This document shows positions 2,772 through 48,076 of a stretch of DNA of 63,369 nucleotides, piece after piece. The position numbers and the translations under genes were made by a program. Position 1 is the first letter of the stretch. Each line of letters starts with the position of its first letter. Origin of the DNA: an uncultured Alphaproteobacteria bacterium (GTDB lineage: Bacteria; Pseudomonadota; Alphaproteobacteria; Rickettsiales; CAIJLX01); the NCBI GenBank assembly GCA_903821695.1, contig CAIJLX010000074.1, positions 1-63,369 on the forward strand. The letters are read 5' to 3'. Below the pieces are notes generated by a model, which saw nothing but the letters and a program-made list of their open reading frames with translations, made no database searches and had not been told where the DNA came from.

Positions 2772-4326
2772 TTTTCTTTCTCCGCTTTAGCCAGCTTTTA
2801 AGCTCGGTCAGCGTATATATTTTAAACACGTAGCCAAGGCCGAAATATAGCAGAATTGCGGCTCCAAGCAAGCCCGAGAGGTAAATCGGGCGCACGATTT
2901 TTGGTGCTCCTACAAACTGCAAACTAAGCACCCAAATCACCGCTCCCATAAATAGGGCTAGCAGCAGAGTAAAAAACACATTCCGGCGGGTTTGTGATAA
3001 TAAAGTGAGTCGGCCATGGCGCTTTAATAATACGAACAAAGTTCCGGCGTTAATCCAGGCACTTATGGTCGTCGCTGCAGCAATCCCCGTGGCAGAATTT
3101 AGGCCGATCAGCGGGAAATAATGTACAAAAAACCAGGTGAGCGGCAGGTTCACAAAAATACAGAAGGTTGCGATTTTTACAGGCGTTTTGGTGTTCTCGG
3201 CGGCGAAGAAACCGGGCACTAATACTTTGATGAGGACGAAGGCGGGTAGGCCAAAACCATAGGCGATGAGGGGTTGGGCGCTGGCCAAACTATCCGCCGC
3301 CGTAAACGCTCCGCGCTCAAAAAGAGTCGCCATAATAGGGTAAGCGATGCCCAAAAATCCAGTCGCGGCGGGCAGGGTAAAAAAGAGTGCCACGAAGATC
3401 GCCTCGTTAATCGTCTTATTGGCATCCTCTAATTTACCTTCGCGCATTTGGCGGGAAAGCAGGGGGAGGATAGCGGTGCCAAGTGCAACGCCGATAATGG
3501 CGAGCGGCAATTGGTTGATGCGGTCCGCGTAATAGAGTGTGGAAACGGTGTTGGGCACGAGGGTGGCGATTAAGGTGCTGATCCATAAATTGATTTGCAC
3601 TGCACCTGCAGCAATGATGCCAGGCACCATCAGCTTCAATGCTTTTTTGACTTCCGGCGGCATAGTTGGCGAGCGCGGCTTAATCCAAATACCTTCGCGT
3701 ACACAGTTATAATAGAGCCATATGAATTGCACGACACCGGCAATTGCCACGCTCCACGAAAGCGAGTGAGCTGGCGTCGCGGTGTATTTATCTAATAGGA
3801 GAGGTGCAAGGATTAGGGTGAGATTTAGAAAAATCGGAGCGGCGGCGGCGGCGGCAAATTTGTTCAGACTATTTAAAACGCCACCAAGCAATGAGACGAG
3901 TGAAATGAATAATAAATAGGGGAAGGTGATGCGGGTGAGGTAAACCGCCATATCGAATTGTGCTGGGTTTTTGGTAAAGCCAGGGGCAAGGCCTAGCATC
4001 ACAAATGGCATCGCGATTTGCATGATGATGGTGAAGATGAGCAAAACCCATAACATTACTGCGAACATTTTTTCGGCGAACTTGATAGCGTTTTCGCGGC
4101 CATCTTTACTCAGCACGCTGGTGAAAGTTGGGACAAAGGCGGCGCTGAAGGCGCCCTCGGCAAACAATGTGCGGAAGAAATTTGGTAGGCGGAAGGCGAC
4201 GAAGAATGTGTCTGCAAGTGCGGTGGTGCCTAGCAAAGCGGCGATGGTGATATCACGCGCAAAGCCCAATACACGCGAGATGAGCGTGAAAAAAGCGATG
4301 GTCGAAGCAGATTTAAGTATAGACAT
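2737..4326 (-). CDS. murJ: lipid II flippase MurJ (MviN)
   Basis: A polytopic inner-membrane protein of the MOP exporter family that flips lipid II to the periplasmic side for peptidoglycan synthesis. The N-terminus MSILKSASTIAFFTLISRV is diagnostic, followed by GFARDITIAALLGT and RLPNFFRTLFAEGAFSAAFVP. Hydrophobic stretches through the rest of the 529 residues fit 14 helices. I take Met at 4326 as start because the 13 residues an earlier start would add are not part of the family. It heads the murJ-proA-trmJ operon and is divergent from secF, with only 41 nt between the two starts. Confidence 0.96.
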   Translation of the reverse strand: MSILKSASTIAFFTLISRVLGFARDITIAALLGTTALADTFFVAFRLPNFFRTLFAEGAFSAAFVPTFTSVLSKDGRENAIKFAEKMFAVMLWVLLIFTIIMQIAMPFVMLGLAPGFTKNPAQFDMAVYLTRITFPYLLFISLVSLLGGVLNSLNKFAAAAAAPIFLNLTLILAPLLLDKYTATPAHSLSWSVAIAGVVQFIWLYYNCVREGIWIKPRSPTMPPEVKKALKLMVPGIIAAGAVQINLWISTLIATLVPNTVSTLYYADRINQLPLAIIGVALGTAILPLLSRQMREGKLEDANKTINEAIFVALFFTLPAATGFLGIAYPIMATLFERGAFTAADSLASAQPLIAYGFGLPAFVLIKVLVPGFFAAENTKTPVKIATFCIFVNLPLTWFFVHYFPLIGLNSATGIAAATTISAWINAGTLFVLLKRHGRLTLLSQTRRNVFFTLLLALFMGAVIWVLSLQFVGAPKIVRPIYLSGLLGAAILLYFGLGYVFKIYTLTELKSWLKRRKKNGTNGTEDGRK

Positions 4327-4329
4327 AGA

Positions 4330-4358
4330 TTGACAATCCTTAGTGTGTAAGGCTAATT
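4330..4358 (+). promoter_or_regulatory. possible promoter of secF
   Basis: TTGACA at 4330-4335 is followed 17 nt later by CTAATT (4353-4358), a weak -10. The predicted transcription start falls within a few bases of the secF ATG at 4368, and no Shine-Dalgarno sequence is visible, so the mRNA could be nearly leaderless. The -35 match is good and the -10 poor. Confidence 0.3.
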
Positions 4359-4367
4359 CGCACAACT

Positions 4368-5267
4368 ATGTTTCCACTTCGTTTCATTCCCCGCCAACCA
4401 AAACTGAAATTCATGGCTCGCCGCTGGATCGCATTTGTGCTCTCTGGTGCGATGGCCGTGGTCACGTTTGTGCTGCTGTTTACGCAAGGGCTCAATCTCG
4501 GAATTGATTTTACGGGCGGGATTGTCATGGAAGTGCGTTTACCAAAAGTGACAGAGCTGCACCAAGTGCGCACCGAACTTGGCAGGCTGAACCTTGGCGA
4601 TGTGACGCTGCAAAATTTTGGTACGGAGCGTGATATTTTAATTCGCCTGCCACAGCAACATGGCGGAGCCAATGCGCAAAACGCAGCGATTGCAAAAATA
4701 AAAGCAGCCTTAGGTGAGGGCGTGGAATATCGCAAGATTGAGCAAGTGGGCCCGCTAGTGGGCGAAGAGTTGGCAACCGGCGCAATATGGGCGATGCTGC
4801 TCTCATTCGCGGCGATCATGGTCTATATATGGATACGCTTTGAATGGCAGTTTGGTATCGGTGGATTATTAGCGCTGGTGCATGATGCAATCATTACACT
4901 CGGTTTTTATGTGGTGACACAAATCGAATTTAACCTGACATCGGTTGCGGCGGTGCTCACCATTATCGGTTATTCGGTGAATGACTCCGTAGTAATCTAT
5001 GACCGTATCCGCGAGAACCTTCGCAAATATAAAAAGATGCCGATTTCCGAATTGCTCGATCTCAGCATTAACGAAACATTATCACGCACCATCATGACCG
5101 TGATGACAACCTTACTTGCCTTGCTCGCGCTTATTCTGGTGGGTGGTGAAGTGATCCGCGGGTTCTCGCTGGCGATGTTCTTCGGGATTTTGTGGGGAAC
5201 CTATTCCTCGGTTTATATCTCTGCGCCAATACTTATTTATTTCAAGCTTCGCCGGAATAAAGATTAA
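4368..5267 (+). CDS. secF: protein translocase subunit SecF
   Basis: A 299-residue inner-membrane protein, standard SecF length. It carries the first transmembrane helix, the conserved GLNLGIDFTGGIVMEV motif at its periplasmic end (about residues 43-58), and the five-helix RND core with TIIGYSVNDSVVIYDRIREN and the TLSRTIMTVMTTLLALLAL segment. With SecD it uses proton motive force to help late stages of Sec export. secD is not next to it; the upstream neighbour is the divergent murJ, so secD must lie elsewhere. A palindromic repeat separates its 3' end from convergent bioA. Confidence 0.97.
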   Translation: MFPLRFIPRQPKLKFMARRWIAFVLSGAMAVVTFVLLFTQGLNLGIDFTGGIVMEVRLPKVTELHQVRTELGRLNLGDVTLQNFGTERDILIRLPQQHGGANAQNAAIAKIKAALGEGVEYRKIEQVGPLVGEELATGAIWAMLLSFAAIMVYIWIRFEWQFGIGGLLALVHDAIITLGFYVVTQIEFNLTSVAAVLTIIGYSVNDSVVIYDRIRENLRKYKKMPISELLDLSINETLSRTIMTVMTTLLALLALILVGGEVIRGFSLAMFFGILWGTYSSVYISAPILIYFKLRRNKD

Positions 5268-5275
5268 CCCAAATT

Positions 5276-5344
5276 CGTCATTTCGAACGAAGTGAGAAAT
5301 CTGTGGACTAGTGCTTCAGATTTCTCACTTCGTTCGAAATGACG
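5276..5344 (+). repeat. palindromic dispersed element, copy 1 (overlaps the 3' end of bioA)
   Basis: Two 28-nt arms, beginning CGTCATTTCGAACGAAGTG and ending with the exact reverse complement, flank a 13-nt loop. In reverse orientation the apex reads CTGAAGCA-CTA-GTCCACAG. The same apex with a different central triplet occurs in copies at 42018-42092 and 63038-63108. The arm of this copy has GAACGAAGTGAG where the others have GAACCGCAGGTGAG, and both strands change together, so pairing is kept. It lies between convergent secF and bioA and could act as a bidirectional terminator. Confidence 0.93.
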
Positions 5345-6600
5345 GCAAGTAATGTCTCGAGATCTTCTTTCGCAATCGTGAAAGCTGGCGTCAGGTAAAT
5401 GATATTACCGAAGGGGCGCAACCAGCATCCTGCTTCCGCAAATTTTTGACGCAATAAGAACATCTGCTCCCACGTCGCGTTTTTGAGTTCGACAACACCA
5501 ATCGCACCCATCACACGCACATCTTCCACTTGTGGTAAATCGACCAGCGATTTTAAACCTGCCCACATTTGCGCTTCGATGGCTTCGATTTGTTTTAGGC
5601 GTGGTTCTTTTTCAAATAAATCGAGCGATGCATTAGCGGCGGCACATGCGAGAGGATTAGCCATATAGGTTGGGCCATGCATCAGCGCTTTGGTTAATTC
5701 TTCGCCTAAGAAGGCATTGAAAATTTCTTCGGAGGCGAGCGTTGCGGCGAGTGTCATCGTGCCGCCGGTAAGTGCTTTGCCGACACATAATAAATCTGGT
5801 GAGATGCCTGATTGTTGATACGCAAACATTGATCCGGTGCGGCCAAAGCCAGTTGCTACTTCATCTGCAATAAACAAAATTTCGTGCTCTTTGCAGAGGC
5901 GATAAATCTCAGCCACGATATCTGGCGAATGGAATCGCATGCCGCCTGCGCCTTGCACGAGCGGTTCCATAATTAATCCAGCAATCGTTTTTTTGTTATC
6001 TTTTAATACGGCTTCAAATTCGGCGAAGCTATATTCATCGGCTGGCAGATCGACGACATATTGCATAGGCATATAGGGGGCATAGACATGATGCATTCCG
6101 TTTTCCGGATCCGAAACCGACATCGCACCCATCGTGTCGCCGTGATAGGCATTATGAAATGATACGAAGCGAGTTTTGGTTTTGCGATGTTGGTTTGCCC
6201 AATATTGCACGGCCATTTTCATCGCCACTTCAACTGCAGTCGAACCCGAATCGCTGAAAAAAACTTTTGGTAATCCAGTGAGTTTGGAAAGTCTGGTCGC
6301 GAGTTTGAACGCTGGTTCATGCGCAAGGCCAGCAAACATTACATGCGGCATTTGGCCGAGCTGTTGTTGCATGGCGGAAAGAATATGCGGGTGGTTATAG
6401 CCATGGCAGGCGCTCCACCAACTAGCGATGCCATCGATTAATGTTTCGCCGTTACTAAGAGTAATGCGGGTGCCTTCGGTGCTGATGACGGGCAGGGGTG
6501 CAAAGCCATTTTGCATCTGAGCATAGGGCAGCCAAATATGCTGCAACCCTTCCTCCAGCCATTTAGGTGCGGGGAGTTTAAGAAGCGACTTTAAGGGCAT
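5308..6600 (-). CDS. bioA: adenosylmethionine-8-amino-7-oxononanoate aminotransferase
   Basis: A PLP-dependent class III aminotransferase that converts KAPA to DAPA with S-adenosylmethionine as amino donor. It shows [52 protein letters not shown] and the PLP-lysine segment VGKALTGG. I prefer ATG at 6600 (GAGG nine bases upstream) over a TTG five codons earlier; either start overlaps the end of bioB. The last eleven residues ([11 protein letters not shown]) and the stop codon come from palindromic element copy 1, so the native C-terminus has been replaced or extended. Confidence 0.96.
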
Positions 6601-42104: not shown

Positions 42105-43163
42105 TCACTTTAGCTTCAGGCTTCTCTCTATCTGCTCATTAGATACAGGTTTTTGGACAATAACGCCATACCATCCAAGCCCATCATATTCCTGATAGCC
42201 AATCGTCTTTGCAAATGCGACCACATTGCCGTTGGGGTCGATATAGGAACCCTTAGTATTTCCGCTGGTTTTTAAGTCAAATGGCTGCAGCAACCCATCA
42301 TTATCAGAAGCCGCAATCACCCGGAAATTATTATCCAAAAGCATCACCCGAGTGCGGCTTTTTTCCTCCGGCGAGAGGGTAGGTTCATCCTGCACAATCG
42401 CTCGAGATTGATCACCCCAATCGAAATAGACCCCTAATACGCCCAGCACCTCACCATTAAGCTCACCACCCCGACGCACCGAAGCCCCATAGACCGCCAC
42501 GGGTTTATTATTATGCATGTCACAATTATAGATATCGTCGACCGAATACAGATCTCCACTCGCATGGTTCGCCGCCTGCCGAAACCACTTCGTGTTGCCG
42601 ACATTCGATCCCATCGGTGCCGAAAACATATCCGGCCGGGAAGTTGCGATGATTTTGCCCATCCGATCGGTCAGCAGTAAGTTAAGGTAAACCGTATAAA
42701 ACCGATTAATCACCCCCAGCCGAGCCGTCGCATGGGCCGCCGCAGCCTCACTCGGATTTTCGAGGCATTTATAAAATGCCTCATCCGTCGCCCACCAACG
42801 GCAATCCGCCGTGCGTTCATAAAGATTGCGTACAATCAGCTGCACCAGAATTTGGTATAACTCAACGAGACGTATGCCTTCGATGCTGTTCACCAACTCA
42901 TCGGTAATAGTAAGAACTTGCTGGATGCGAGATAAAACGGCATGGCGGAAGCTGGTCGAATTATCGGCGGCTTGTCTCGCCAAATTTTTGACCTCCGAGG
43001 CGACAATCGCGAAGCTTTTCCCGGCCTCTCCCGCACGTGCCGCTTCGATAGTAGCGTTGAGCGCTAGCAGGTTGGTTTGGCCAGCGATTTTCTCGTTGGT
43101 GCGGGCGAAGCGTTGCACTTCTTCCTCCACATTTTTCATCAACACTAAAATACTGCGTGGCAT
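42105..43163 (-). CDS. soluble methyl-accepting chemotaxis-type receptor with C-terminal sensor domain
   Basis: A 352-residue protein with reversed domain order. Residues 1-70 are the MCP signalling hairpin tip ([20 protein letters not shown], then [20 protein letters not shown]). A helical linker follows, with [20 protein letters not shown] near residue 115. Residues about 150-340 resemble a PDC/Cache sensor ([38 protein letters not shown]). No transmembrane helix is visible, so it should be cytoplasmic. The start is supported by GGAG six bases upstream. The hairpin is short, and no CheR or CheB is encoded nearby, so adaptation by methylation may be absent. Confidence 0.82.
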
Positions 43164-43174
43164 AGTAACTCCAG

Positions 43175-43588
43175 CTATGTTTGTCGGGATAAGAGCAAAA
43201 TGGTTAAGTCATCAGCGATCAACTCATTGCAATGCGCCTTAAATTTTTCGAGGATGGTCTTGAACGGGTTTTTAGTGATGAGTGCGTTTTCCATCATCTT
43301 CGACGTAAACACATCGCCCTTTTTATTCGGTGTTTCAATCAGAGCATCGCTATATAAGAATAATGCATCTTCCGCCTTAAACGGCACCACTCGAGTTTTA
43401 TAAACTGTCTTATCATGTGCCTCGAGTGGCAACCCACTACCATCGAGCCATTCGATACTCTTGCCACGAATCACAATTGGGTGCGTAGAGCCAGCCGCCG
43501 CATAGCTTATGAGACTTGAGAACAGCGCTCGATGCATTCGGCGGAAAACTATGCGACGCAAACCGCATAATAATTGTCCGCCCACCAT
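43175..43588 (-). pseudogene. C-terminal fragment of a SpoIIE-type PP2C phosphatase
   Basis: From about residue 25 the reading frame matches only the second half of a SpoIIE phosphatase domain: ALFSSLISYAAAGSTHPIVI (compare L-YANAGHP), LFLYSDALIET (compare LYTDGL-E) and the end motif [11 protein letters not shown] with metal-binding Asp residues. The first half, with the N-terminal metal Asp, is missing; upstream sequence is the end of a HATPase in another frame. It could not be an active phosphatase. It lies 11 nt before the MCP gene. Confidence 0.75.
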
Positions 43589-43961
43589 CAGTTATATCAA
43601 CCGTATCGCAGCACTCCCGAATAATTGCCATGCCACGCCCATGCAGGGCACTTTCACCCGGCGGTACTATGGCGTGCTCTGAGAAGCCGCTACCTTGATC
43701 GGTGACAGAGATAATAATTTCATCCGGCGTAAATTCTAATTGAAGCGTAATGGTTTTTGGCTCTTTCTTATGCAAGAGCATGTTACTAATCGCTGCGAAG
43801 TGGTCGAACATTTTATACGCATTATTATAATCACTATGCGCACCCAGATTGCCATGAATGAGTGCATTCAATAATGCCTCATGCAATGCCGTGATGATAT
43901 TTTCTTCCTGACCCTTGGTTAAGGTGCGGCGTGTTTTGATGAATAGGAACAGACACTGCAA
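43437..43961 (-). pseudogene. HATPase_c (RsbW/anti-sigma-like) domain, truncated and out of frame with its neighbours
   Basis: The frame encodes a complete Bergerat fold: N-box EALLNALIHGN, G1 VTDQGSGFSEH, G2 HGRGMAIIRECCD and end GGRTIIMRF. These are serine-kinase anti-sigma-type ATPases that phosphorylate STAS antagonists. The only start is TTG at 43961, immediately after a TGA in this frame. Upstream DNA encodes a membrane anchor in another frame (from 44055), and about 50 residues after the ATPase are out-of-frame readings of the PP2C fragment. The domain might still be made, but the gene looks rearranged. Confidence 0.7.
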
Positions 43962-44055
43962 TAGGCATCACCCCCGCCAGCGGTAATAATCCAAAAACCA
44001 GTAATAATAACGTGAGCTTGGTACGGATTTGCAGGCGGGAGATGATCGACGGCAT
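43879..44055 (-). pseudogene. N-terminal membrane-anchor fragment of a sensor protein
   Basis: A perfect AAAGGAG five bases before ATG 44055 marks a real translation start. The first 36 residues (RLQIRTKLTLLLLVFGLLPL within them) are a basic N-terminus plus transmembrane helix of the kind that opens chemoreceptors and membrane SpoIIE phosphatases. The frame then runs into HATPase-coding DNA out of frame and stops after 58 codons. This looks like the surviving 5' end of a larger sensor gene that lost its middle. Confidence 0.65.
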
Positions 44056-44069
44056 AGAGGCTCCTTTGG

Positions 44070-44765
44070 TTAGTTTTGCAGGATCTTTCGATCGCCTTGG
44101 GGTTGAATAGCGCGGGCGTTATTACCCAACACTTTTTTAAACGCAGCGAGTTGGTCTTTGCCCAATTCGACATAGGATTTCAGCACATACCACTGCACAT
44201 CTTCAGTGCATGGCGGTGTGGTGAGTGAGCCGGTATAGGTGTAATAACCAAGGTCTGCCGGCAGCAATGTTTGCGGGCTAAAGAACACATCGCTGATGAT
44301 GGTTGGCTCGGTCGTATCGGTTTGTGGGATTTTGGAAACGAGGGTGTTGAGCGCGAAATTGCTGAAGCCCTTTTTCATCATCAGGCTGACGACAGCGATT
44401 TTGCCATCGGCATCTTTATGTTCCATCTGCACTTCAAGATCAAATTTCTGTCCGCGAAGGCTATGCTCTGACGGGCTATGAAACGTGATGCGGCTTAAAT
44501 GATATTTCTTATCGCCGATAGTGAGCTCACTACCTTCAGGGTAATGAATCGCAAATAGCCCTGCTTTGCGTTCAACAGTAAGTTCCACATCTTTATAATC
44601 AGCTACCAAAGCGGGCAGGGTGGCTTTGCTTGCTTTGCCAAGGGAGACGGGCGATTGTTGTTTGCCTTGCTCACACAATGTCGTATCCGGCTTTTCGTCT
44701 TCGGCGAAAAGTGGGGTAGCAGTTGCAAGAATGGTGGAGAGTAAAATAGCTTGTGTCATGTTCAT
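44070..44765 (-). CDS. alpha-carbonic-anhydrase-like periplasmic protein lacking zinc ligands
   Basis: A 231-residue protein with signal peptide (LLSTILATATPLFA, cleavage near residue 21). The alpha-carbonic anhydrase fold is clear: CEQGKQQSPVSL, RITFHSPSEHSLRG, LEVQMEHKDADGK, GSLTTPPCTEDVQWYVL and NNARAIQPQGDR. Active enzymes have HFH and ELH in the zinc site. Here the first His is Thr94 and the third is Gln113; only His96 remains. The N-terminal WGY-GP-W segment is also missing. It is probably not a carbonic anhydrase but a binding or structural protein. It follows cheW after 10 nt with its own AAAGGAA. Confidence 0.85.
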   Translation of the reverse strand: MNMTQAILLSTILATATPLFAEDEKPDTTLCEQGKQQSPVSLGKASKATLPALVADYKDVELTVERKAGLFAIHYPEGSELTIGDKKYHLSRITFHSPSEHSLRGQKFDLEVQMEHKDADGKIAVVSLMMKKGFSNFALNTLVSKIPQTDTTEPTIISDVFFSPQTLLPADLGYYTYTGSLTTPPCTEDVQWYVLKSYVELGKDQLAAFKKVLGNNARAIQPQGDRKILQN

Positions 44766-44775
44766 GATGCTTCCT

Positions 44776-45255
44776 TTAGATCTGGAATGGTGGTTTTGAT
44801 TGTTTCAGATTCGAACAACTTTCCATATCCAGAAGGATGACCATGCGTTGGTCAACGGAAATCAACCCGCTGACGTATTTTTCATCGATTGAGGTGCTTC
44901 CTTGCATCGCCGGAGCCGCTTTTACCTCTTCGGGCGTGACCGTTAAAATATCAGAAACCGCATCGACCAAGATGCCAATACTGCGTGTTTCGAGCGCAAT
45001 AATGATAATCACATGCTTGCTTTCGGCCTGCGTTAGGCCCAGCCCAAAACGGCAGCGTAAATCAAAAATTGGCAGAATCACGCCGCGCAGGTTCATCACA
45101 CCACGCAAAAACTCTGGCGAATTAGGCAGGCGAGTGACATCCGTCCAGCCTTTAATCTCGCGCACCATCATAATATCGACCCCAAACACTTCTTCACCAA
45201 CGGTGAAGCTGAGATATTGGCTGTTATCGGAATTATTCTGGTTGGTTTCGGTCAT
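44776..45255 (-). CDS. cheW: chemotaxis coupling protein CheW
   Basis: A 159-residue CheW with LSFTVGEEVFGVDIMMVREI, PNSPEFLRGVMNLRGVILPI, DLRCRFGL and GILVDAVSDILTVTPEEV. It couples receptors to CheA in the signalling array. The start shares an ATGA with the end of cheA. The frame appears intact. Confidence 0.96.
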   Translation of the reverse strand: MTETNQNNSDNSQYLSFTVGEEVFGVDIMMVREIKGWTDVTRLPNSPEFLRGVMNLRGVILPIFDLRCRFGLGLTQAESKHVIIIIALETRSIGILVDAVSDILTVTPEEVKAAPAMQGSTSIDEKYVSGLISVDQRMVILLDMESCSNLKQSKPPFQI

Positions 45256-47248
45256 GATCTTCTCCTTAAAGCTGCCATAGGGGTTGCGAGTTGCTGGAAT
45301 TTGCCGACATCTAAAATCAAGGACACTTTGCCATCGCCCAATATCGTCGCCCCGGAAATACCCTCGACTGGGTCCGAATTCGTCTCGAGCGTTTTAATCA
45401 CCACTTGCTGCTGGCCAATCAGCTCATCCACGACTAGCCCAATTTTGTGCCGCCCACTTTCGACCAGCACTACGAGTGCCTCCGTCGCATTCAGCACACC
45501 ACCATGCGCCCCAAACAAATTCGCCAAATACATAACGGGAATAAATTCGCCACGTACATTGATGACATCATTCCCACCCGCGATTTTCTTCACTTCCTGC
45601 GCCTTAGGCCGCATCGTTTCGATGATATTGCCAATCGGGATGATATAATTTTCGCTGCCCACCCGAACGATCATTCCATCCAAAATCGCGAGCGTAAGCG
45701 GAATCGAGACAATAAATCGGCAGCCTTTTCCAGGCGTATTGAGAATCTGCAATGCGCCGCCCAAGCCCTCGATATTTCGTCGCACCACATCCATCCCCAC
45801 ACCACAGCCAGAGATGTTGGAAACTTTATCCGCTGTTGAGAAGCCTGGCAGGAACACGAGGTTATCAATCTCCTCATCCCGCAATTGTGCATCTTTCGGA
45901 ACCAGCCCTTTTTCCTTGGCTTTCTCGAACACTTTGGTGCGATTAATGCCCGCACCATCATCCGAAATCTCAATAATAATCCGCCCACCACGGCTATCGG
46001 CGGAGAGATTAATCGTGCCCTGCGCCGGCTTGCCATTAGCAGTGCGAACTTGCGGTGTTTCAACGCCATGATCGGCCGAGTTGCGGATCATGTGGGTTAA
46101 CGGGTCACTCAACAATTCGATGACCGTTTTATCAACTTCGGTATTCTCACCAATCGTATTTAACTTAATATCCTTGCCCAATTGCACAGCGATATCCCGC
46201 ACAATCCGTGGCATGCGCGAGAACACCGATTTGAGCGGCTGCATCCGCACACTCATCACGGCCTCTTGCAATTCGCGTGTATGTTGCAGCAAATCTTCGA
46301 TGCCCTGAATTAGCTCCTGGTTCTTATCAATCTGCAAATGGCGTGATTGGGCGGCGAGCATCGCCTGGATAATCACAATCTCACCAACCATGTTGACGAG
46401 CTTATCGACTTTATCAATATCCACCCGGATCGAGGTCGTAACATTGCCAACTGAAGAAGCTGCTACTTCCGTTTTTTTCGTCTCTGCCTTAACTTCGGCA
46501 ATAGGCGCTTCTTCAATTTCCGCATCGACACCCGCTTCAATGGTAATTTCCAGCTTACATTCGCCATCTACAAACTCGAATACTTCCTTCACGCCCTCAA
46601 GCGAAGAGGTGCTTTCAAGCTCAATCAGATAGCTAAATAGGCCTGGTCAGGCTCAATCTCATGTAGAGCAGGAACAGTCGAAATATCGGTCTTTACCTTA
46701 ACCTTCCCAAGTTTCTTCAGCTCCCGAATAATAAAAATGGGCTCATTGCCGCTCAATAACATGGAGCGCTCTGGCACAAAGGAGATGTGGTAAAATTTCA
46801 CCACCTCATCATTTTTCTTTGCAGCAGCTCTGCCTTTCGGAACCGCAATCGTCTGCCCACCTGCAACCGCGAGTGCGTTTAATTCCGCCGCCAAATCTTT
46901 CCCCATCTCGGCTGGCACAGGCTTGCCTTCCCGTGCCAGCCGAATCATCTGGCTGGTAACATCAACCGAGCGCAGCAGCGCATCAATGGCACCTTGTGTG
47001 GCGGGCACTTTTCCATCCCGCATCACATCCAGCAACGCCTCGGCTATATGAGTAAAACTAACAATCTCATCCAACCCAAACGCGCCGCCGCCGCCCTTAA
47101 TCGAGTGGATGCAACGGAAAATCGCATTGAGCACCTCTAAATCTGCGCCCGCATCCACATCAATGCCAAGCAGCATCTCTTCCATCTTCGAAAGTAGCTC
47201 AAAGCATTCGTTAAAATACGTATCCTTAAACTGATCAAACCCAGCCAT
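45252..47248 (-). pseudogene. cheA: chemotaxis histidine kinase CheA, interrupted by a frameshift
   Basis: The 5' part (47248-46625) encodes the HPt domain with His48 in IHSIKGGGG and a following domain (FYHISFVPERSMLLSG). It ends at a TGA just after DQAYLAI. The 3' part, open from about 46640 (first ATG 46592) to 45252, encodes EVFEFVDGECKLEI, dimerisation, HATPase (MIRNSADHGVE; DDGAGIN; GCGVGMDVV) and CheW-like domains. One extra A on the coding strand near 46634-46637 would restore AYLSYLIELESTSSLEG across the break. So this is one CheA gene with a one-base deletion. Overlapping starts tie it to cheY and cheW. Confidence 0.88.
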
Positions 47249-47613
47249 TATGGGCACACCTTCTGCACAACTTGCACCAACTTCTCTGGGTTAAACGGTT
47301 TTACAATCCAGCCCGTCGCCCCAACAGATTTCCCCTCCTGCTTCTTGGTGTCATCCGCCTCGGTGGTCAGCATCAAAATCGGTGTGGATTTATAATTCGC
47401 ATCCGCCCGCAATGCGCGAATCAGCTCAATGCCGTTCATATTCGGCATATTGAGATCGGTAATAATCACATCGACCTTGCTGCCGTTTAAAACTGTCAGC
47501 GCATGCTTGCCATCTTCGGCCTCAATCACCTCAAACCCGGCGCCCTTCAGCGTAAACGTCACCATGTCTCGCATGGTTTTGGAATCATCCACGGTCAATG
47601 CGCGCTTACTCAT
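47248..47613 (-). CDS. cheY: chemotaxis response regulator CheY
   Basis: A 121-residue single receiver domain. Phosphoacceptor Asp53 is in VIITDLNMPNMNG; acidic pair LTVDDSKTMRDMV; Thr in LMLTTEADD; Lys in GWIVKPFNPEKL. It relays CheA phosphorylation to the flagellar motor or another target. It starts in an ATGA overlap with the original end of the STAS gene and ends TAATG with cheA. The frame is intact. Confidence 0.96.
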   Translation of the reverse strand: MSKRALTVDDSKTMRDMVTFTLKGAGFEVIEAEDGKHALTVLNGSKVDVIITDLNMPNMNGIELIRALRADANYKSTPILMLTTEADDTKKQEGKSVGATGWIVKPFNPEKLVQVVQKVCP

Positions 47614-47912
47614 GTTTCTTTACCCCATTTTTGAATCAACTCCAGTAGACCAAAATCAGCCAGCGCCTCCTCCATTTCTTGAGAGGGATTATCAACTAAT
47701 AGTTGTCAATCGTTTTTGGTTATGTGGTTCATAAAAGAAACTATAAGTTGTACGGCTGGTGACGTTATCTTCTTAACCGCACTTGCATCAAGGTGAAAAG
47801 AATTGCGATTTTCGCTATTTAATATCAGTTTTTTATGCATTGTTTGTACCATAGAGATGTCAAGCACCTGTGGTAACGCTATTTTTACATCTCCTATAAT
47901 TTTCTCAACCAT
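47610..47912 (-). pseudogene. STAS-domain protein (anti-anti-sigma type) with an in-frame stop
   Basis: From ATG 47912 the frame reads a STAS domain (KIALPQVLDISMVQTMHKKL; FHLDASAVKKITSPAVQLIV) to a TGA at 47708-47706 after ITKND. Beyond it the same frame continues for 31 codons (QLLVDNPSQEMEEALADFGL and on to QKWGKET), which is a normal STAS C-terminus. It ends at a TGA overlapping the cheY ATG. Without the inner stop it would be a 100-residue protein coupled to cheY. A CGA-to-TGA or TGG-to-TGA change would explain it. The truncated 68-residue form lacks the last helix. Confidence 0.8.
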
Positions 47913-48076
47913 AATGCGCGCGCCAGAAAGGATAAAATAATTAACCAACTCAACTATAGATAGCATTCATAACTTCAAATAAGTTCCATTGCAAGAAGAA
48001 ATTTTGGGGCCAAGCATTTCTTCGTTTTCTTCAGGGGCTTGTTGCTTTTTGGCCGAATAAAACGTAACTGTTACCT

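Follow-up and report, generated by a model that had tools for sequence, protein, structure and literature searches.

Among the described systems closest to the locus analyzed here are partner-switch modules such as RsbU/RsbW/RsbV and HsbR-HsbA. In Pseudomonas aeruginosa, the HsbR-HsbA partner switch is located beside cheW/cheR and flgM, and HsbR is encoded by a single gene, whereas the corresponding parts are distributed over two genes in the operons described below (PMC5085249). A literature search for partner switches within chemotaxis operons of this bacterial group gave nothing direct, HsbR-HsbA being the nearest case. The window, i.e., the whole stretch of 63,369 nucleotides analyzed here, lies on contig C74 of an uncultured alphaproteobacterium of the Rickettsiales. 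It shares with the described modules the HATPase and SpoIIE families and the linkage to chemotaxis/flagellar genes. However, it contains these families as unlinked fragments only, the phosphatase is not intact and STAS2 is lost. The locus very probably represents a decayed form of the che operon that is standard in this order, including its terminal partner-switch trio, produced by two deletions, a nonsense mutation in STAS and a frameshift in CheA.

The chemotaxis operon of the order

Operons of relatives were recovered by searching order relatives and named GTDB genomes. The initial annotation of the window had proposed to seek the homologous operon and to align each piece to it; intact operons were found and the deletions became measurable. 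In L241 (G129) the genes are arranged as STAS-CheY-CheA-CheW-CA-MCP-CheR-CheD-CheB-small MCP-STAS2-HATPase-RR-SpoIIE. L246/L060 (G110) has the same order including the carbonic-anhydrase-like (CA) gene, with the first STAS not scored, and L245 (G150) likewise contains intact homologues at the matching operon position. In L241, L245 and L246, all from uncultured alphaproteobacteria, STAS2-HATPase-RR-SpoIIE forms an intact partner-switch trio that ends the che operon, and the operon order of Azospirillum (L077, L078) is similar.

The window resembles these operons in gene order and in STAS, CheY, CheA, CheW, the CA-like gene, the MCP N-terminus, the HATPase and the SpoIIE C-terminus. However, it lacks most of the MCP, CheR, CheD, CheB, the small MCP, STAS2, both ends of the HATPase and half of RR-SpoIIE, and both its STAS and its CheA are broken. 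Along the minus strand, the genes follow in the order STAS, CheY, CheA, CheW, CA-like gene, mosaic and intact MCP-like gene:

47613..47966, minus: STAS-like gene at the operon head, with a premature in-frame TGA at about 47706-47708 and homology extending beyond it, without a change of frame, to about 47613
47248..47613, minus: CheY, intact, 121 aa (PF00072, E=1e-29; 61-83% identity to relatives)
46625..47257, minus: N-terminal part of CheA (Hpt, start of P2), terminating at the frameshift at about 46630
45252..46620, minus: C-terminal part of CheA in another frame (dimerisation, HATPase, CheW-like; NF007835 positions 249-660; 65% identity to relatives)
44776..45255, minus: CheW, intact (PF01584, E=4e-37)
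44070..44765, minus: alpha-carbonic-anhydrase-like gene, open frame, zinc-ligand positions altered (PF00194, E=4.5e-30; alignment to 4xz5)
44061..44067, minus: AAAGGAG ribosome-binding site of the former MCP gene (sequence)
43951..44055, minus: N-terminal remnant of the operon MCP, about 33 residues, first transmembrane segment (multiple sequence alignment, MSA, with the MCP N-termini of L059, L060, L036 and L067; blastp)
43943..43957, minus: junction 1, MCP N-terminus to HATPase with shifted frame (distances in L060 and L036; gene order in L241 and L246)
43550..43950, minus: remnant of the RsbW-like HATPase domain (PF13581, E=1.1e-13; MSA)
43515..43555, minus: junction 2, end of the HATPase to the middle of SpoIIE (distances in L036 and L038; MSA)
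43175..43516, minus: C-terminal part of the RR-SpoIIE phosphatase (PF07228 positions 73-191 of 192, E=2.3e-15; MSA)
42105..43163, minus: MCP-like gene, intact, marking the edge of the decayed stretch (in many genomes of the order, full-length relatives with 339-357 aa and 54-64% identity)

The stretch therefore does not represent a complete chemotaxis operon, since MCP, CheR and CheB are lost and CheA is frameshifted. Nor does it contain an adjacent STAS anti-anti-sigma partner, as STAS2 is present in the intact operons and absent in the window. The initial annotation had combined HATPase, SpoIIE and STAS into a partner switch; this agrees with the adjacent STAS2-HATPase-RR-SpoIIE genes at the operon end in relatives, but the STAS left at the head of the operon in the window is linked to CheY, carries the premature stop and is not STAS2. 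The MCP-like gene at 42105-43163 was considered as a further truncated gene and rejected as such, because its relatives share its length and layout. In its product, the signalling hairpin segment is N-terminal and a sensor-like region C-terminal, which is the reverse of the usual order; such reversed proteins are a conserved family in many genomes of the order and are mostly encoded outside the che operon.

Three remnants and two junctions

Reading the minus strand from 44055, a membrane anchor is followed by the HATPase and by the C-terminal part of SpoIIE, each out of frame with its predecessor by one base. These three pieces and their out-of-frame collisions had been recognized in the initial annotation, and its breakpoints at about 43960 and 43560 are correct to within about 45 bases. 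The start with a ribosome-binding site described there is present as well: AAAGGAG at 44067-44061 precedes the ATG at 44055 by five bases, and this ATG opens a 58-aa ORF (43879-44055). The anchor MPSIISRLQIRTKLTLLLLVFGLLPLAGVMPIAVS aligns with operon MCP N-termini, e.g., MLRLTIRAKLTLLLLVFGLLPLATVMPII of L059 (MSA), and its first about 33 residues are 56-74% identical to intact order-level MCP N-termini (blastp, E ~2e-9). By sequence comparison, the anchor is identified as the N-terminal end of the MCP, the chemoreceptor of this operon, and not, as had been assumed, as a part of a sensor/phosphatase gene.

The HATPase reading (43961->43437) matches PF13581 with 51.8 bits at a cut-off of 27.4. 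It can be aligned to the operon HATPase of relatives from just ahead of the conserved core and retains the N, G1 and G2 boxes, while the N-terminal extension and the natural C-terminus are missing (MSA). The earlier description as a complete HATPase domain thus holds for the domain match and the boxes but not for the two ends. An intact HATPase kinase/anti-sigma protein is not encoded, there being no in-frame start with a clear signal; the TTG at 43961 is a possible start for this frame, and nothing else backs its use.

The phosphatase reading (43588->43175) matches SpoIIE PF07228 with 57.5 bits at a cut-off of 25 and, as already noted in the initial annotation, covers the second half of the domain only. 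The acidic motifs GGD and DFSGHG are absent and SDALIE and DDLT are kept, leaving two of the four (MSA), so that a complete PP2C/SpoIIE phosphatase, with all its acidic motifs for metal binding, is not present. Considering what is established on the PP2C metal site, the leftover piece should be unable to act catalytically. Neither the HATPase nor the SpoIIE remnant contains an internal stop codon.

The points equivalent to junction 1 are separated by 7565 bp in L060 and by 7514 bp in L036, which implies that about 7.5 kb with six genes were lost here and that MCP codon ~33 runs into the HATPase. The implied loss comprises most of the MCP, the start of the HATPase and all of CheR, CheD, CheB, the small MCP and STAS2. 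For junction 2, the equivalent points lie 814 bp apart in L036 and 848 bp apart in L038; a deletion of about 0.8 kb would imply the loss of the HATPase tail, the receiver domain and the first half of SpoIIE including GGD and DFSGHG. The implied deletion sizes are consistent among relatives (7.5 kb in both cases for junction 1; 0.81 and 0.85 kb for junction 2), the ancestral state being reconstructed at the level of the order from relatives with protein identities of 30-70%. The initial annotation had suggested internal deletions in a sensor/phosphatase gene and an anti-sigma gene within the chemotaxis operon. The placement in the operon stands, but the main deletion is not confined to one gene.

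Lesions in STAS and CheA

Two further genes of the operon are interrupted. Reading the STAS gene past its TGA gives NPSQEMEEALADFGLLELIQKW, which aligns with the STAS C-termini of relatives (L244 NPSSEMTNAFLVMGLESQFNKW), and the stretch beyond the TGA, QLLVDNPSQEMEEALADFGLLELIQKW, resembles relatives such as L244 IENPSSEMTNAFLVMGLESQFNKW. In CheA, a one-base frameshift within 46600-46640 splits the gene: the frame ending in AYLAI-stop resumes one frame over as LIELESTSSLEGVKEVFEF, matching ..AWDIVLETQAPLAAIKEVFEF of relatives. Orthologous CheA genes elsewhere in the order are open in 37 of 37 cases (36 genomes) and encode 575-785 aa, compared to 464 aa here. An alternative genetic code was rejected as an explanation for the STAS codon, because TGA terminates four of 20 solid genes of the window and is thus a normal stop here, and because the break in CheA is a frameshift under any code.

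A second chemotaxis cluster in the same genome

The draft genome comprises 2.1 Mb in 111 contigs and is rated 100% complete. Searches for CheR, CheB, SpoIIE, MCP and CheA did not find the lost genes elsewhere in it and returned only a second che cluster and an unrelated MCP. This second cluster (L141 6304-12473; G000:C67) is intact, encodes a CheA-receiver fusion of 888 aa, CheW, CheY, CheB and CheR, and harbors the genome's sole CheR and sole CheB. A gene resembling a histidine phosphotransferase, judged by eye, is also present in this cluster. The only SpoIIE match in the genome is a fragment, and there are two MCPs only, neither resembling the missing operon MCP. Flagellin and flagellar genes are present and one transmembrane MCP is intact. 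As this MCP and the second cluster are preserved, we infer that motility control may continue through them.

Origin of the mosaic

The preferred reading is gene decay in situ. A deletion of about 7.5 kb would have joined the HATPase domain to codon ~33 of the MCP, another one of about 0.8 kb would have joined mid-SpoIIE to the end of the HATPase, and STAS and CheA would have been broken by the nonsense codon and the frameshift. The remaining mRNA would then be translated from the former MCP start into a membrane stub of 58 aa, made up of the MCP's first membrane segment and about 24 unrelated residues, and would not yield a functional HATPase or phosphatase. The loss would be tolerable to the cell because the second che cluster, an MCP and the flagellar genes remain. 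As expected for a pseudogenised operon, intact homologues occupy the matching operon position in relatives and the frames are broken compared to these homologues. Lesions of three kinds (nonsense, one-base frameshift, deletions) occur within one operon, and some 20 further genes of the window have their full length (compared to NCBIfam). Counting against decay, CheY, CheW and the CA-like gene are intact, the remnants are free of stops and the TTG at 43961 is available. The presence of the lesions in the living genome, their temporal order and a takeover by the second cluster are conclusions that we infer. If the fragments are leftovers of the standard che operon after two deletions, they represent ordinary gene decay and not a new type of signalling gene. 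On this account, a flagellated alphaproteobacterium with a genome of 2.1 Mb would have lost one of its two chemotaxis systems step by step, leaving the mosaic behind. The main use of this explanation would lie in annotation and in studies on the loss of redundant chemosensory systems.

An artefact of assembly or strain mixture, in which the operon is complete in the organism and parts of it were skipped in the contig, is unlikely. It would fit to the fragmented draft state of the genome and to the fact that the one other mosaic described below (L064/G142) likewise originates from a metagenome assembly. However, the skipped genes are on no other contig of this genome in spite of its completeness rating, the other genes of the window are intact, and a skip accounts neither for the premature TGA of STAS nor for the shifted frame of CheA; one misjoin would not bring about a nonsense mutation, a frameshift and two joints that are out of frame. 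A misjoin driven by repeats was rejected, as within the window and the fetched part of the genome's own contigs no repeat of at least 13 bases occurs at either joint. Considerably less probable still is a functional rearranged module consisting of a short membrane peptide and a stand-alone HATPase regulator translated by internal initiation or coupling. The good ribosome-binding site of the stub, the intact N, G1 and G2 boxes and the occurrence of lone RsbW-like HATPases of 155-182 aa in relatives speak for it. Against it, every piece is out of frame with the preceding one, half of the acidic motifs of the phosphatase are gone, the usual partners STAS2 and RR are lost, and the arrangement is found in none of about 25 operons of the order readable past CheW. 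In the initial annotation, relatives with the same joined arrangement had been named as what would point to a functional design; none of these operons shares the joints of the window. The more specific proposal that the joined locus is under selection as a minimal module is the least credible of all. In such a module, a free HATPase regulator, no longer coupled to the phosphatase, and a membrane peptide translated from the former MCP start would act together with CheY, CheW and the CA-like protein, which are all intact. Decay of the standard che operon thus remains the favored explanation.

A second mosaic in the order

Among the operons readable past CheW, one similar case was found. L064/G142 (MAG 336R_metabinner_139) has a separate out-of-frame deletion mosaic at 4066-5645, at the same operon place, with the layout CA-like gene, TM/HAMP stub, out-of-frame MCP PAS fragment and RR-SpoIIE without the start of the receiver. 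As in the window, a large deletion from the MCP to the partner switch results in a mosaic right behind the CA-like gene. However, the breakpoints differ, and in L064 the HATPase is gone, the SpoIIE domain is complete and CheA and STAS are intact. Its genus-mates G110 and G129 retain the full operon. The che operon of this order thus carries a partner-switch trio, and large central deletions would have arisen in it at least twice. Truncated SpoIIE matches in G117, G156, G094:C75 and G079 were considered as further parallels and rejected, since they are cut by contig ends.

The carbonic-anhydrase-like gene

An alpha-carbonic-anhydrase-like gene adjoins chemotaxis genes in about eight genomes of the order, either between CheW and the MCP or before the small MCP. 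Apart from the window (44070-44765, minus strand), it is found in L060 (11898-12722), L064 (3260-4066), L191, L194, L195, L197 and L199, and its position in the window is that in L060 and L064. The third zinc ligand is Q in the window and in L064, and the first zinc-ligand histidine is replaced in all seven CA-like genes with a readable motif (T, R, M-R-M, E, L-A-F and similar); the true carbonic anhydrases L203 and L206 retain QFHFH. The CA-like protein may serve the receptor as an accessory that is catalytically dead or functions in sensing or binding.
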